A stretch of DNA of 64,000 nt from the NCBI GenBank assembly GCA_022651385.1, contig JALCQR010000001.1, positions 248,001-312,000 of the forward strand, given 5' to 3'. The stretch is from Clostridia bacterium. GTDB taxonomy: Bacteria > Bacillota > Clostridia > Lachnospirales > Anaerotignaceae. The notes under the pieces were generated by a model. The model worked only from the letters and a program-made list of their open reading frames with translations, had not been told where the DNA came from and made no database searches. A program made the translations under genes and the position numbers. This document shows positions 57,932 through 63,868 of this stretch, piece after piece; positions within the stretch are counted from its first letter, which is position 1, and every line of letters starts with the position of its first letter.

Positions 57932-58828
57932 TTACTTGCACTCAGTGATGTCAGGCATAAAGTCATAATTATCATGGTTAACAACAATCCAGTTGTCGCC
58001 GAATTTTTGAACAGTTATATTTTCATGGCTATTATACATTGTCTGGGTAGAATCAGTTAGTGTATAGTCTATCTGGTATACATAGGTATTATCATCGATT
58101 TTATTTTTTTCAGTGAAGCTGTAATCTGTAACCCAAGGGCTAGAACCGCCGATAGACCAATTCATATCCTTATATTTTTCATAATCCTGACTTTTAAGTT
58201 TATTTGAGAGAATTGCAAAACGGAAACTGCTATTCCTTTGCTTTAAAGCTTCTGCCCATAAGGCAACAGTTCCTTCTTTGTCCTTCGTAACTAAAGAATT
58301 TTTTTTATTTAACTGCACTTCTGAGAACGGATGAGCAGTGTCTTCGGTAATATCTGGTAAACAATTGTAATTATCATGACCGACAACACACCAGCTATTG
58401 CCAAATCTTTTAACTGTTATGTTTTCGATGCTGTTATACATTGCCTTAGTAGAATCTGTCATTGTATAGCTAATTTGATATACATAGGTATCACTGTCAA
58501 CTTTATTTTTTTCATGTACTGTGTAGCTAACAACCCAAGGACTTGAACCACCAATTACCCAAGACATCTGGTTGTATTCATCATATTCTTTTGCTTTAAG
58601 TTCGTCTGAAAGAAGTGCAAATCTAAATGCACCGTTTCTTTGGCTTAGTGCTTCAGCCCATAAGTTTACCGTTTCAATTTTATCTTGGGTTAAGCTGCTT
58701 TCAATTTTTTGTGTTTGAGATTTGTTTTGAAAATTTTCTCCTTTTGTCATTGCCTGTGCATTTGTCTTTGTAGCACCCAATGATAAAAAACATACGATGC
58801 CAATTAGAATTTTTTTTGAACATATCAT
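57932..58828 (-). CDS. Secreted protein with two near-identical 113-residue repeats
   Basis: A 298-residue protein. The signal peptide (about 1-26) ends TNAQA. A Gln/Lys-rich linker is followed by repeat 1 (about 51-163) and repeat 2 (about 184-297), which match at roughly two thirds of positions. Shared blocks are LWAEAL-x-QRN-xx-FRFA-LS, W-x-IGGSSPWV, DTYVYQI-Y-TDST and FG-W-VV-HDNY. The pattern recalls small NTF2-like or BlaR1-type sensor domains, but I cannot assign a named family. AAAGGAG precedes ATG 58828. It is monocistronic. Confidence 0.8.
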   Translation of the reverse strand: MICSKKILIGIVCFLSLGATKTNAQAMTKGENFQNKSQTQKIESSLTQDKIETVNLWAEALSQRNGAFRFALLSDELKAKEYDEYNQMSWVIGGSSPWVVSYTVHEKNKVDSDTYVYQISYTMTDSTKAMYNSIENITVKRFGNSWCVVGHDNYNCLPDITEDTAHPFSEVQLNKKNSLVTKDKEGTVALWAEALKQRNSSFRFAILSNKLKSQDYEKYKDMNWSIGGSSPWVTDYSFTEKNKIDDNTYVYQIDYTLTDSTQTMYNSHENITVQKFGDNWIVVNHDNYDFMPDITECK

Positions 58829-59034
58829 AGCTATTCTCCTTTTTTATACAACTAAACCACTAAGTAAATATATGCAATTAGTTTCACCTGTAGTTCCTGA
58901 ACATGTATACATTTGAGGTAATAGGTGTGACTGTTTACACTATTTATATTTTGCGATTCAGCTTTTTATCATCATTTTTGATTGCATACATTTTACAATT
59001 ATGGAAAAGTAAAGTCAATAATTTAAAGTAATAA

Positions 59035-59090
59035 TTGACAAAATAGTTTAAATATTTTAAAATATAAACATCAAACATCAAACGTTTAAC
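59035..59090 (+). promoter_or_regulatory. Promoter and candidate operator for the GntR operon
   Basis: TTGACA (59035-59040), exactly 17 bases, TAAAAT (59058-59063). Just downstream, CATCAAA occurs twice and ends in a palindrome TCAAACGTTTAA-like core (AAACGTTT, about 59080-59087). It would be a natural autoregulation site for the GntR protein. Confidence 0.5.
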
Positions 59091-59109
59091 AACTGAGGAG
59101 GCGTAGAAT

Positions 59110-59817
59110 ATGTCTTTTAGCAGTATAGAGGGTAAACAAAAAGGAACAGCTGTCGAATTTGTTATAAATGCTTTTAAAGAACTTCTTGAAAAAAGAGAGC
59201 TTAAACCCGGCGATAGAATTCCTAATGAAACGGAGCTTTCTCAAATACTTTCTGTAAGCAGAGGCTCTGTAAGAGAGGCGCTTAAAATACTTTCCGCTTT
59301 TGGGGTTGTAGACATACAAAGAGGTAACGGAAGTTTTATTTCCGACGGGCAGTCTTCAAATATAGAGCCTGTGCTCTTTAACTTTCTTCTTATGAATCCC
59401 TCTATCAAAGAAGTAAGAGATTTTAGAGAATGTATTGAAAGGAATGTGCTCTTTCTTGGAATAAAATATGCAGATGATGGAGACATTGCGAAAGTAAAAG
59501 AAAATCTTAAAAAATTCGAAACTCTTAATCCAGAAGATGAAAATATACAGAAAAAAAAGCTTGATCTTGATTTGGAATTTCATTCACTTTTGGGAAAAGC
59601 AACTCATAATGGTTTTATTGAAAAAATTTATTCCTTTGCAATGAATTATTTTATTCCAATTATGCTTAAAACATATGAAAATCAGGCCATAGTGCCGAAA
59701 GACTCGGCAAAGGCACATGAAATTTTGTTTGAACCTATTTTGAAAAAAGATACAAGTCTTATTGAAAACGCTATAGAAAAAAGCAATGATATATGGCAGT
59801 ATTTGTCAGGTAATTAA
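59110..59817 (+). CDS. GntR-family (FadR/FCD subgroup) transcriptional regulator
   Basis: A 235-residue protein. The N-terminal winged helix (about 12-78) contains LKPGDRIPNETELSQIL and VSRGSVREALKIL. The C-terminal FCD domain (about 95-225) has metal-site candidates (D-x3-H pattern in DLEFHSLLGKATHN and a later H in KAHEIL). FCD regulators usually bind an organic or sugar acid. ACTGAGGAGG precedes ATG 59110. It heads the operon of the split lyase and LarA-like genes, so the operon substrate is its likely ligand. Confidence 0.9.
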   Translation: MSFSSIEGKQKGTAVEFVINAFKELLEKRELKPGDRIPNETELSQILSVSRGSVREALKILSAFGVVDIQRGNGSFISDGQSSNIEPVLFNFLLMNPSIKEVRDFRECIERNVLFLGIKYADDGDIAKVKENLKKFETLNPEDENIQKKKLDLDLEFHSLLGKATHNGFIEKIYSFAMNYFIPIMLKTYENQAIVPKDSAKAHEILFEPILKKDTSLIENAIEKSNDIWQYLSGN

Positions 59818-59844
59818 TAATTATTCTGCAAAGGAGGAAGGAAT

Positions 59845-60117
59845 ATGTATAATTGTTTGGTAATTAATGAAAAAGATACTGTTGCTACCGTTATCACTCC
59901 TATTAAGGCTGGAGAAGAAGCTGTTTATTTTTTGAAGGGAAGCGAACACAAAGTTAAAGCAATAAGTGACATTATAAAATTTCATAAGATAGCTCTTTGT
60001 GACATAAAAAAGGGGGATACTGTTATTAAATACGGATGCAAGATAGGTTATGCACTTTGCGATATAAAAAAAGGTGAATATGTGCATACACATAATCTTG
60101 ACAGTAAAAAACAATAA
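59845..60117 (+). CDS. SAF-domain small subunit of UxaA/SuyAB-type lyase
   Basis: A 90-residue protein matching the N-terminal SAF domain of altronate dehydratase (UxaA) and the alpha subunit of (2R)-sulfolactate sulfo-lyase (SuyA). It contains DTVATVITPIKAGEEAVYF and two repeats of the phrase ALCDIKKG. AAGGAGG precedes ATG 59845. It is separated by only 14 bases from the large subunit. In the split form SAF and catalytic parts are separate proteins. Substrate is undetermined. Confidence 0.85.
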   Translation: MYNCLVINEKDTVATVITPIKAGEEAVYFLKGSEHKVKAISDIIKFHKIALCDIKKGDTVIKYGCKIGYALCDIKKGEYVHTHNLDSKKQ

Positions 60118-60131
60118 AAGGAGTGAGAAAA

Positions 60132-61298
60132 ATGAAATTTAAAGGATACAGAAGACCCGACGGCAGAGCGGGTATTAGAAATCATATACTTATATTGCCT
60201 TGTTCTCTTTGTGCAAGCGAGACGGCAAGATTCATTGCTTCTCAGGTTCCGGGAGCAGTTTATATACCTAACCAAGGCGGATGTGCAATGGCTGCCGCAG
60301 ACTTGGAAATAACTTTAAAAGTTCTTTCAGGATTTGCTGCAAACCCAAATGTTTTTGGTACGGTTGTTGTGGGAAATACATGTGAAAATGTACAGGCTTC
60401 ACTTCTTTGTGAAAGAATAAAAGAATTAACAAACAAACCTCTTAAAAGCGTTGTTATAAGAGATGTAGGCGGCACAATAAAAGCTGCTGAAATCGGTGTA
60501 AAATATGCAATGGAAATGAGTATGGAAGCATCTAAATGTGAAAAAGAAGATATTGACATGTCTGAGATTGTTTTTGCAACAGAATGCGGCGGAAGCGACC
60601 CTACAAGCGGGCTTGCCGCAAATCCAACTTTGGGATATGTAAGCGATAAAATGGTATCTCTCGGCGCTATAAGCATACTTTCTGAGACATCCGAGCTTGT
60701 AGGAACAGAGGACATACTTGCTCCGCGATGTGTGAACAATAAAGTGTCAGAAAAATTACTTAAGATAATAAAAGACAATGAGGATTATTTTACACTTCAC
60801 GGTGAAAGTCTGAGAGACGGAAATCCTTCAGTAGGCAATAAACAAGGAGGACTTACCACATTGGAAGAAAAATCCCTCGGCTGTATTCATAAATGCGGTA
60901 CTTCAACAATAATGGAAGTTTACGGCTATGGTGAACAAATTGACAGAAACAAAAAAGGTCTGGTTGTAATGGATACGCCGGGACAGGATATTGCTTCCGT
61001 TGCGGCAATGGTAGCCGGAGGAGCTCAGATTGTGGTATTTACAACAGGAAGGGGAACGCCTACCGGAAATGGAATTGTGCCTGTAATAAAAATGACTGGA
61101 AACAGTGAAACTTTTGGCCTTATGAAAGACAACATTGATTTTGACGCAAGTGCAATTATAGATGGAAAAGCCGGAATTGAGGACACGGGAGAAAAACTTT
61201 TTGAGCTTGTAACGGAAGTAATTAACGGCAAAAAAAGCAAAGCCGAAGCATTGGGCTTTAATGATATGTCACTTGCAAGAAAATGCAATTTTTGTTGA
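60132..61298 (+). CDS. UxaA/SuyB-type lyase large subunit
   Basis: A 388-residue catalytic subunit of the UxaA/GarD/SuyB family, iron-dependent dehydratases or lyases acting on 2-hydroxy acids. It contains YRRPDGRAGIRNHILILP, NQGGCAM, VVVGNTCENVQ, FATECGGSDPTSGLAANP and the late TGRGTPTGN. Cysteines at GGC, NTC, ECGG and the final NFC are conserved or plausible iron ligands. ATG 60132 after AAAGGAG is preferred. Altronate, galactarate or sulfolactate chemistry cannot be told apart by eye. Confidence 0.88.
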   Translation: MKFKGYRRPDGRAGIRNHILILPCSLCASETARFIASQVPGAVYIPNQGGCAMAAADLEITLKVLSGFAANPNVFGTVVVGNTCENVQASLLCERIKELTNKPLKSVVIRDVGGTIKAAEIGVKYAMEMSMEASKCEKEDIDMSEIVFATECGGSDPTSGLAANPTLGYVSDKMVSLGAISILSETSELVGTEDILAPRCVNNKVSEKLLKIIKDNEDYFTLHGESLRDGNPSVGNKQGGLTTLEEKSLGCIHKCGTSTIMEVYGYGEQIDRNKKGLVVMDTPGQDIASVAAMVAGGAQIVVFTTGRGTPTGNGIVPVIKMTGNSETFGLMKDNIDFDASAIIDGKAGIEDTGEKLFELVTEVINGKKSKAEALGFNDMSLARKCNFC

Positions 61299-61320
61299 TA
61301 TATGAAGGGAGAAAATACAA

Positions 61321-62628
61321 ATGACATTTATTGATTTTCCGGAAATGAATTTTCCGGTTCAGGGAATTGAAGATGTGCCTATGCCTAAAATGGTTAGGAT
61401 AAAGGAAAAATATGAGGATGATAAAATTGATGACGTGAGAGCACACATTGAAAGTGAAATGGATAACCTTGAAATCGATAAGGCTGCCCTTAAGGGGAAA
61501 TCAATTGCCATAACTGTAGGAAGCCGAGGTATACCAAGCCTTCCGGTACTTGTAAAATCAATATGCGACAAGCTTAAAGAATGGGGAGCAAAACCGTTTA
61601 TAATTCCTGCAATGGGAAGCCACGGAGGCGGTACTGCCGAGGGAAACTTGGAAGTAATAAACGGCTACGGAATAACAGAAGAAGCAATGGAAGTGCCTAT
61701 AAAGGCTTCAATGGACGTAGTTCTTGTAGGACAAATGGAGGATTCCGCACACACACCTATTTACTGTGACAAATATGCGGCAGAAGCAGACGGAATTGTT
61801 CTTTTCAATAAAGTTAAACCGCATACTGATTTCAAAGGTTATAACGAAAGCGGTATATGCAAAATGATTGCCATTGGTATTGCAAAACACACAGGCTGCT
61901 CATGGTTTCACAAACAGGGATTTGACACTTTTGGTGAAAGGATACCGATTGTGGCAAAAGAATTTCTTCAGAAGATGAATGTAATAATGGGAATCGGCGT
62001 TGTGCAGAATGCATATGATGAAATATCAGAGATAAAAGCCTTTCCCAAAGATAAGATAATGGAAGGCGACCACGAACTGCTTCAAATTGCCAAAAGAAGA
62101 CTTCCGAGAATGAAGTTTGACAATATAGATGTACTTATTATAGACAAAATTGGCAAAAATATAAGCGGCGAAGGCGCAGACCCTAATGTAACAGGACGTG
62201 GATTTATGCCGTATTTCAAGGATGATTTCCACTGCAAGAAGCTCTTTATAAGAGGACTTACAGAGCAGAGCCACCACAATGCCTGCGGCCTTGGGCTTGC
62301 GGATATAACAACGAGAAGATGTCTTAATTCCTGTGATTGGGCAAGCACTTGGATAAACCTTTCAACAAACACAATGATAGACGGAGGAAAAATACCTGTA
62401 TATCAGAACAATGACTTTGAGGCACTGCGCCTTGCAATAAGGACATGCACAAAAATTGACTACTCAAAGGCAAGAGTTGCAAGAATACATGATACACTTT
62501 CTTTAAGTGAACTTGAAATATCGGAAAGTCTTATTCCTGATGTCATGAACAGGGACGATGTTGAGATTGTATCTGAGCCTTATGATTTACAGTTTGACAA
62601 AGACGGGTATCTGGAAGATTTTAAATAA
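61321..62628 (+). CDS. LarA-like (DUF2088) nickel-pincer racemase/epimerase homologue
   Basis: A 435-residue protein of the lactate racemase family. Residues equivalent to the key ones in LarA are present: H101 (GSHGGGT), H168 (VKPHTDF), K181 (ESGICKM) and H197 (WFHKQG). The K181-H197 distance of 16 equals that of LarA K184-H200, which bind the nickel-pincer cofactor. It would racemise or epimerise a 2-hydroxy acid. No larB, larC or larE cofactor genes are in the window. It follows the lyase by 22 bases in the same operon. Confidence 0.85.
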   Translation: MTFIDFPEMNFPVQGIEDVPMPKMVRIKEKYEDDKIDDVRAHIESEMDNLEIDKAALKGKSIAITVGSRGIPSLPVLVKSICDKLKEWGAKPFIIPAMGSHGGGTAEGNLEVINGYGITEEAMEVPIKASMDVVLVGQMEDSAHTPIYCDKYAAEADGIVLFNKVKPHTDFKGYNESGICKMIAIGIAKHTGCSWFHKQGFDTFGERIPIVAKEFLQKMNVIMGIGVVQNAYDEISEIKAFPKDKIMEGDHELLQIAKRRLPRMKFDNIDVLIIDKIGKNISGEGADPNVTGRGFMPYFKDDFHCKKLFIRGLTEQSHHNACGLGLADITTRRCLNSCDWASTWINLSTNTMIDGGKIPVYQNNDFEALRLAIRTCTKIDYSKARVARIHDTLSLSELEISESLIPDVMNRDDVEIVSEPYDLQFDKDGYLEDFK

Positions 62629-62651
62629 AATTAAATAAAAATTGAATATAC

Positions 62652-62731
62652 AAAGCAGTATCAAAAATAGAATGATATGAGGTGATTTTTTTGAAAAGAC
62701 TCATAACGTTTGTTTTGATACTGCTTTTTTT
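62652..62731 (+). terminator. Terminator-like inverted repeat enclosing the dacF start
   Basis: AAAGCAGTATCAAAA (62652-62666) is a perfect 15-base complement of TTTTGATACTGCTTT (62713-62727), which is followed by TTTT. The 46-base loop holds the dacF ribosome binding site (GAGGTG, 62679-62684) and start. Positioned 23 bases after the larA-like stop, it could end that operon or control dacF. Confidence 0.6.
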
Positions 62732-63863
62732 GATGAAAATAAGTGCATATGGAGCCGAACTTCCTAAAGTAAAAGCACAGGGTGCATGTCTTATGGATTA
62801 TGAAACAGGCCGTGTTTTATATGAAAAAAATATGAATGAGCCTTTGCCCATGGCAAGCACAACCAAAATTATGACATGTATTATAGCACTTGAATCGGGA
62901 AAGCTTGAAGACATTGTAACTGCATCTTCTAATGCAGCAAAAACACCTAAAGTCAGGCTTGGGCTAAAAAAAGGCGAAAAGCACAGGCTATATGATTTGC
63001 TTTATCCGCTTATGCTGATTTCCGGAAATGACTGTGCAGTTGCAATTGCTGAGCATATAGGAGGAAGCATACAGGGGTTTGCTGATATTATGAACAAGAA
63101 AGCTAAAGAAATTGGGGCTCGTGATACGGAGTTTGTAACTCCAAACGGCCTTGATTCAGGAAATCATCATTCTACTGCTTATGACATGGCCTTAATAACA
63201 CGGTATGCTTTAAAAAATGAAAAATTCAGAAAAATAATTGCAACGCGCCAAATAACCATACCTCTTAAAAACAGTGACGAAAAAAGCTATACTGTTTCAT
63301 CAAAAAACAGACTTCTTAATGAATTTGACGGAGCCATAGGAGTTAAAACAGGTTTTACAGGAAAAGCCGGAAACTGTTTTGTGGGTGCCGCAGAAAGAAA
63401 CGGCCTTACACTTATTTCCGTTAATCTTGCAAGCGGATGGGGCAGCGCCGGCAAACAGCAAAAATGGAGAGACGCGAAAAACATGCTAAACTATGGATTT
63501 GACAACTACAAAAAATATAAAATAGCCGAAAAGGGGAAAATTTTAGGCAATACAAGTGTTACATTTTCAAACACAAAAGAAGTACCGGTTGTATGTGACA
63601 GCGACGGATATGCTGTGATTACCGATGAGGAGTACAAGGACCTGAAAGTACATACTGACTTTAAAAAAAATACGGATGCACCAGTACATACAGGAGATTT
63701 AATGGGTACTATGACTATATCCACAGATTTGGGAGAAACACTGTTTAAGTGCAACGTAGTTGCTGCAAACAATGCGGAAAGGTTTAAATTTAAGGACTCA
63801 TTTAAAAGAATAATGGAAATATGGTTTAAAAACTGGATAAACGATTATTTAAAAAGTGTAAGT
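62691..63863 (+). CDS. dacF: D-alanyl-D-alanine carboxypeptidase (DacF-type penicillin-binding protein)
   Basis: A class C low-molecular-weight PBP that trims the terminal D-Ala of peptidoglycan stem peptides. The signal peptide ends near residue 22. Motifs are S56-T-T-K59, S111-G-N113 and K219-T-G221. The C-terminal PBP5-like domain ends with an amphipathic helix for membrane contact. The start is TTG 62691, six bases after GAGGTG (62679-62684). GTG 62682 lies inside the site. In Bacillus DacF acts in the spore cortex. The hairpin around its start may regulate it. Stop codon TAA ends about 63866. Confidence 0.92.
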
Positions 63864-63868
63864 TAAGC

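Follow-up and report, generated by a model that had tools for sequence, protein, structure and literature searches.

A predicted two-enzyme sugar-acid module pairing a group 22 nickel-pincer isomerase with a split UxaA/GarD-type dehydratase in a gut-type Clostridia genome

Results

Gene organization of the locus

The window analyzed here, a 64,000-nucleotide stretch of DNA (G000:C1:248001-312000), belongs to a gut-type Clostridia genome of 2.61 Mb in 19 contigs. Between positions 59035 and 62628 lies a co-directional run of four genes on the + strand, which encode a GntR/FCD regulator, a SAF-domain protein, a GD_AH subunit and a LarA-like protein. Each gene is preceded by a Shine-Dalgarno-like sequence, and the intergenic gaps are short (27, 14 or 5, and 22 bases). 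Profile matches confirm the original prediction that a regulator of this type, a split SAF/catalytic lyase and a LarA-like racemase homologue stand together in one run.

The first gene (59110..59817, + strand) encodes a 235-residue regulator of the FCD subfamily of the GntR family (PF00392, 1.1e-14; PF07729, 8.3e-10), with orthologues at the equivalent position in two related genomes, G041 (57%) and G051 (67%). A candidate promoter, TTGACA-17-TAAAAT, is located 5' of this gene (59035..59063, + strand); it agrees with 11 of 12 consensus positions and is the top promoter-like match within 58700-62900, a region that has as many such matches as shuffled sequence would be expected to yield. A terminator scan of the region was likewise at chance level, and a repeat search revealed no clear GntR operator site. 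The gene 3' of the module, at 62682-63866, encodes a D-Ala-D-Ala carboxypeptidase and is outside the unit.

The dehydratase subunits

The second gene (59845..60117, + strand) encodes a 90-residue SAF-domain small subunit (PF08666, 1.4e-08, 35.6 bits) that also matches the N-terminal part of TIGR03248 (1e-10) and whose orthologues adjoin the large subunit in relatives. The large, catalytic subunit (60132..61298, + strand; 388 residues) contains both GD_AH Pfam domains (PF04295, 3.2e-35, 121.6 bits; PF20629, 1e-92, 310 bits), and together with its SAF partner it has the make-up of a split UxaA/GarD-superfamily dehydratase. The mechanical call starts this subunit at GTG 60123, but an AGGAG motif is better positioned for ATG 60132, which is also where relatives start. 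Scores against the GarD equivalog TIGR03248 (214.1 and 40.8 bits) do not reach its cutoff of 730.85, a full-length threshold that is hard for a split protein to attain.

The large subunit has cysteines at positions 27, 51, 84 and 152 that are also found in E. coli UxaA and GarD. Alignment suggests that these are the four cysteines described as conserved across the UxaA/GarD superfamily, sulfolactate sulfo-lyase (SuyAB) excepted (PMC6336799), and we predict that they form the metal site of the subunit. As a SuyB reference we used the Cupriavidus pinatubonensis protein, assigned by its context in a sulfopropanediol operon with hpsN and hpsO; it keeps one of the four cysteines and lacks the other three. 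The examined stretch of the R. pomeroyi megaplasmid contained no suyAB that could serve as a reference.

In our tree, the window's large subunit, two LarA-linked orthologues and two other proteins form a set of five with 100/100 support, and SuyB, UxaA and GarD all fall outside it on long branches. Of the other two members, one is a SAF-GD_AH protein encoded on contig C16 alongside PdxA and a DUF1537 kinase; the second comes from a Salmonella plasmid, where its gene adjoins those for a KDG permease and a DHDPS-family protein. Based on the cysteine pattern and the tree, the window enzyme appears to be of the sugar-acid dehydratase type, and a SuyAB-type lyase was rejected on the same two grounds. 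Because the division into a SAF and a catalytic subunit is common among sugar-acid dehydratases, the layout does not rescue the SuyAB-like character that the original prediction had assigned to the enzyme. Placement against UxaA, GarD and SuyB thus upholds the superfamily and its sugar-acid type; it does not support a sister relationship to SuyB or membership in GarD at the equivalog cutoff.

The LarA-like protein and its cofactor genes

The fourth gene (61321..62628, + strand) encodes a 435-residue member of the LarA superfamily (Lar_N, 38.3 bits), a predicted C2-epimerase/racemase, that passes the NCBIfam equivalog NF052515, "NPN isomerase group 22" (NPN, nickel-pincer nucleotide), at 492.7 bits (7e-148) against a cutoff of 400. 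It falls far below the cutoffs of the racemase models, both for lactate (NF033504, 19.8 vs 460 bits) and for malate (NF052593, 36.7 vs 500; NF052595, 24.1 vs 462). Five residues, R69, H101, H168, K181 and H197, are invariant across 53 sequences and are the counterparts of LarA R75, H108, H174, K184 and H200, the Arg equivalence coming from alignment only; in LarA, His108 and His174 are catalytic and Arg75, Lys184 and His200 contact the cofactor (PMC11770544). In a fold search, the AlphaFold model (pLDDT 93) matched LarA-family structures across 306-332 residues with Z scores of 19-21; the best unrelated chain reached 6.8. A PDB sequence search with the protein gave no match, and our literature search found no characterized group 22 member.

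Of the seven clear LarA-family genes in the genome, group 22 accounts for five; the other two are a canonical LarA and a gene that is nearest to LarAH10 and scores below the LarAH10 cutoff. The same genome has larE, larB and larC consecutively at C7:30812-33657, where larC occupies two frames that overlap (larC1/larC2), so the cofactor genes on which the original prediction depended are all in place. Nor does each gene of the run cluster with an unrelated function.

Recurrence of the gene pair across genomes

Group 22 and GD_AH genes are direct neighbors in 12 of 58 family genomes, against 0.43 expected from random placement; the pairing exceeds chance. Two arrangements occur. Type A, found in the window and in G041 and G051, includes the GntR gene and LarA proteins that are 80-88% identical, and type B, found in nine genomes, mostly carries a divergent IclR gene. 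Pairing is also seen outside the family: Sporomusa has a tripartite transporter, LarA-22, SAF, GD_AH and GntR; Pseudosulfitobacter has a fused SAF-GD_AH, LarA-22 and LarC; and Loktanella has IlvD/Edd, a dehydrogenase, DHDPS, GD_AH, LarA-22, larB and larC. In addition, the canonical LarA of the window's genome shares an operon on contig C17 with a third SAF-GD_AH, an arrangement kept in G041, G043 and G044. Because the LarA-linked dehydratases are scattered over several separate tree positions, the pairing either was established repeatedly or is ancient and has since been reshuffled.

The dehydratase orthologue occurs in 12 of 14 genomes that have the LarA orthologue and in 4 of 44 that do not (Fisher 1.6e-7, or 6e-3 when restricted to genera holding any of the genes), p-values in which shared ancestry among the 58 family genomes is only crudely controlled. 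In most family genomes the two orthologues stand apart, with no regulator or transporter beside them, which makes the operon a local arrangement.

Genomic clues to the substrate

As originally stated, no transporter, aldolase or kinase is attached to the run in the window; relatives, however, do have such genes. In the type B genome G052, a TRAP transporter adjoins SAF-GD_AH, with contig ends hiding the LarA link. In a quick tree, the window's LarA-22 clade (SH-aLRT 100) has members in operons or clusters with a DUF1537 kinase (L065, L066, L067 and L096), mostly together with PdxA, and the nearest other GD_AH branch (the C16 protein and its relatives) likewise has both. The best NCBIfam match of the kinase is the D-threonate type, below cutoff.

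In G048-G051, the LarA-22 gene adjoins genes for an IclR regulator, an acylating acetaldehyde dehydrogenase and a 4-hydroxy-2-oxovalerate aldolase, both enzymes scoring above their equivalog cutoffs, and in G051 the module and this unit form a single row of seven genes. The window's genome has the unit at C2:77987-80670, and its IclR copy matches KdgR best, below cutoff. Both the aldolase and the LarA-22 orthologue are present in 13 genomes, the exceptions being one and two (Fisher 4.5e-10, or 6.9e-5 under the genus restriction), again with only crude control for ancestry. A KDPG aldolase (PF01081) is absent from the window's genome, so a hexonate is unlikely to be processed by the classical Entner-Doudoroff end step.

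Elsewhere, group 22 members are found with uxaC and a reductase (Paenibacillus), with DgoK, KDG kinase and RraA-like genes (G021, the kinases named by eye), with IlvD/Edd, with DHDPS and with (R)-2-hydroxyacyl-CoA dehydratase genes. The common theme of these neighbors is an enzyme that acts on a single C2 epimer. The last-named genes also adjoin members of the close LarA-22 clade, so the substrate range of group 22 is wide. C4 tetronates or (deoxy)pentonates, such as 5-deoxypentonates, are the leading, as yet unproven, candidates.

Discussion

Proposed mechanism

We propose, with a probability of about 0.6, that the four genes constitute a GntR-controlled catabolic module in which an NPN C2-epimerase feeds a SAF + GD_AH sugar-acid dehydratase. 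The group 22 enzyme would first invert C2 of a small sugar acid, a 2-hydroxy acid, by transferring a hydride to and from the nickel-pincer cofactor, with His101 and His168 serving as acid and base. Inversion of 2,3-dihydroxybutyrates at C2 has been documented for LarA homologues (PMC11770544). The SAF + GD_AH heteromer, a putative iron-type dehydratase like UxaA and GarD, would then dehydrate the C2-C3 diol to a 2-keto-3-deoxy acid, and this step would pull the epimerization forward. We infer the reactions, their order and their direction; the protein families, residues, fold, cofactor genes and gene pairing are observed.

A stereochemical purpose for such a pair is suggested by the sugar acids that these dehydratases use. 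By our reading of their configurations, altronate, galactarate, idonate, D-arabinonate, L-fuconate and L-galactonate are all C2/C3-threo. These six are among the known substrates of the UxaA/GarD superfamily, in which the L-fuconate enzyme has two subunits and the configuration of D-arabinonate at C2-C4 recurs in altronate and L-galactonate (PMC6336799). Since the known sugar-acid substrates are all threo, an upstream C2-epimerase would admit erythro acids such as erythronate, ribonate and allonate. As a two-step scheme, the idea of a racemase that feeds a stereospecific lyase has good support from recurrent pairing, co-occurrence, the intact catalytic residues and the full set of NPN genes. 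Its terms need adjusting: the enzyme called a "lyase" is more aptly a dehydratase, and the "racemase" a C2-epimerase, provided that its substrate carries at least two stereocenters.

A more specific extension, which we consider quite unlikely, is that the module and the IclR/dehydrogenase/aldolase unit together salvage erythro (deoxy)aldonates. Once the nickel enzyme had epimerized C2, the dehydratase would yield 4-hydroxy-2-oxopentanoate, which would be cleaved to pyruvate and acetaldehyde, the latter then being converted to acetyl-CoA. 5-Deoxypentonates derived from 5-deoxyribose, a radical-SAM waste product, would fit this salvage route.

Alternative explanations

Among the alternatives, the least improbable, to which we would give somewhat less than one chance in four, is that the two enzymes act in parallel on one acid pool, the NPN enzyme racemizing 2-hydroxy acids in general while the dehydratase has a substrate of its own, with only the regulator in common. 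The distance between the orthologues in most relatives, where SAF-GD_AH stands alone in a conserved housekeeping neighborhood, often near scpAB and dacF, is consistent with such independence, as is the occurrence of group 22 relatives beside other enzyme types. Repeated adjacency to several separate GD_AH branches, the involvement of a second LarA class and the co-occurrence across genomes argue instead for sequential action.

It is very unlikely that the LarA-like protein is a non-isomerase performing other hydride chemistry with a nickel cofactor used differently. Its identity to characterized or canonical LarA members is about 14-21%, and PF21113 does not match its C-terminal domain, both of which leave room for a different reaction; however, the two catalytic histidines are kept in 53 of 53 sequences, unlike in the His-to-Asn LarA homologues of PMC12611868, a group to which the protein can thus be ruled out as belonging. 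Finally, a sulfolactate module, in which the NPN enzyme would invert (S)-sulfolactate and a SuyAB-type lyase would free sulfite, has a negligible chance of being correct, for although the split SAF + GD_AH layout resembles SuyAB, the four cysteines, the separate tree branch and the absence of sulfonate genes beside the module all speak against it.

Significance and relation to known systems

If the C2-epimerase/dehydratase proposal is true, the large NPN-enzyme group 22, with its five copies in the window's genome, would gain its first function, and a substrate prediction for the group would become directly testable. The proposal would also illustrate a general logic in which a nickel epimerase opens a stereospecific dehydratase to further stereoisomers, and the recurrent pairing in related bacteria suggests that sugar acids of the wrong handedness are handled in two steps. 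The parts are known; we did not find the combination described, and a literature search returned no paper joining "UxaA family" and "lactate racemase", though the supplementary context table of PMC7583248 may list it.

With the LarA superfamily (PMC7583248; PMC11770544), the LarA-like protein has in common the fold, the R/H/H/K/H residues and the cofactor genes in its genome, but group 22 is a separate, low-identity branch beneath the lactate and malate racemase cutoffs. The closest parallel in logic is provided by the D-gluconate 2-epimerases GntE2 of Thermotoga maritima and GntE1 of Corynebacterium, likewise NPN epimerases whose gene context assigns them to a sugar-acid pathway; they belong to another LarA group, and the portion of PMC7583248 available to us describes no split UxaA/GarD partner for them. 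The (R)-sulfolactate sulfo-lyase SuyAB has the same two-subunit layout, but SuyB lacks three of the four cysteines and sits on a distant long branch. With the UxaA/GarD dehydratases for D-altronate, galactarate, D-idonate, D-arabinonate and, as a two-subunit enzyme, L-fuconate (PMC6336799), the window enzyme shares the Pfam domains, the SAF component and the four cysteines, whereas it scores below the GarD cutoff and occupies its own branch beside the dehydratase linked to the DUF1537 kinase and PdxA.

Results and discussion

Contig C17 of the window genome holds a second LarA/dehydratase module, an operon of canonical LarA, SAF and GD_AH genes (L017:623-3423 = C17:13923-16723), the latter two encoding the small and large subunits of a split dehydratase. 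The same arrangement (loci L140, L141 and L142) is conserved in three relatives; its neighbours in the window genome include an HpaI-type aldolase, a thiolase and more catabolic genes. On C16, SAF and GD_AH are followed by DUF1537 kinase, PdxA and aminotransferase genes (L018:7785-13227), an order kept in several genomes (L143-L146, with the kinase gene not recognised at L146). Candidate functions for this cluster are tetronate use or a PLP-related route.

At four loci (L071, L072, L078 and L080), genes for group-22 nickel-pincer-nucleotide (NPN) isomerases adjoin those for (R)-2-hydroxyacyl-CoA dehydratase subunits or activase, with acyl-CoA dehydrogenase and CoA-transferase genes also among their neighbours. 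We propose that these NPN enzymes likely provide the racemase step in 2-hydroxy-acid fermentation.

Three group-22 paralogues of the window genome lie in a repeated cassette, at L020:5172-8803 (C4), L021:7219-10964 and L022:6931-9652 (C8), beside genes for proteins of 124-139 aa and 343-349 aa; two of the three also encode proteins of 119-124 aa and 172-185 aa, the larger being MoaB/CinA-like. The proteins of 124-139, 343-349 and 119-124 aa have no significant match in Pfam, and those of them scanned against NCBIfam and the PDB gave none there. The cassettes possibly represent an undescribed system.

The C17 group-22 paralogue adjoins a gene run resembling, by eye, type I CRISPR cas genes (Cas5/Cas7/Cas8/Cas3-like; L016:281-6593). 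Between V-type ATPase genes and the window's GntR-dehydratase-LarA operon, a gene at 57932-58828 (-) encodes a 298-aa protein with a signal-like N-terminus, two similar halves and no convincing family.

The larC gene of the window genome (L024:6352-7658 = C7:32351-33657) is split into two overlapping frames, resembling the larC frameshift known in Lactobacillus plantarum.
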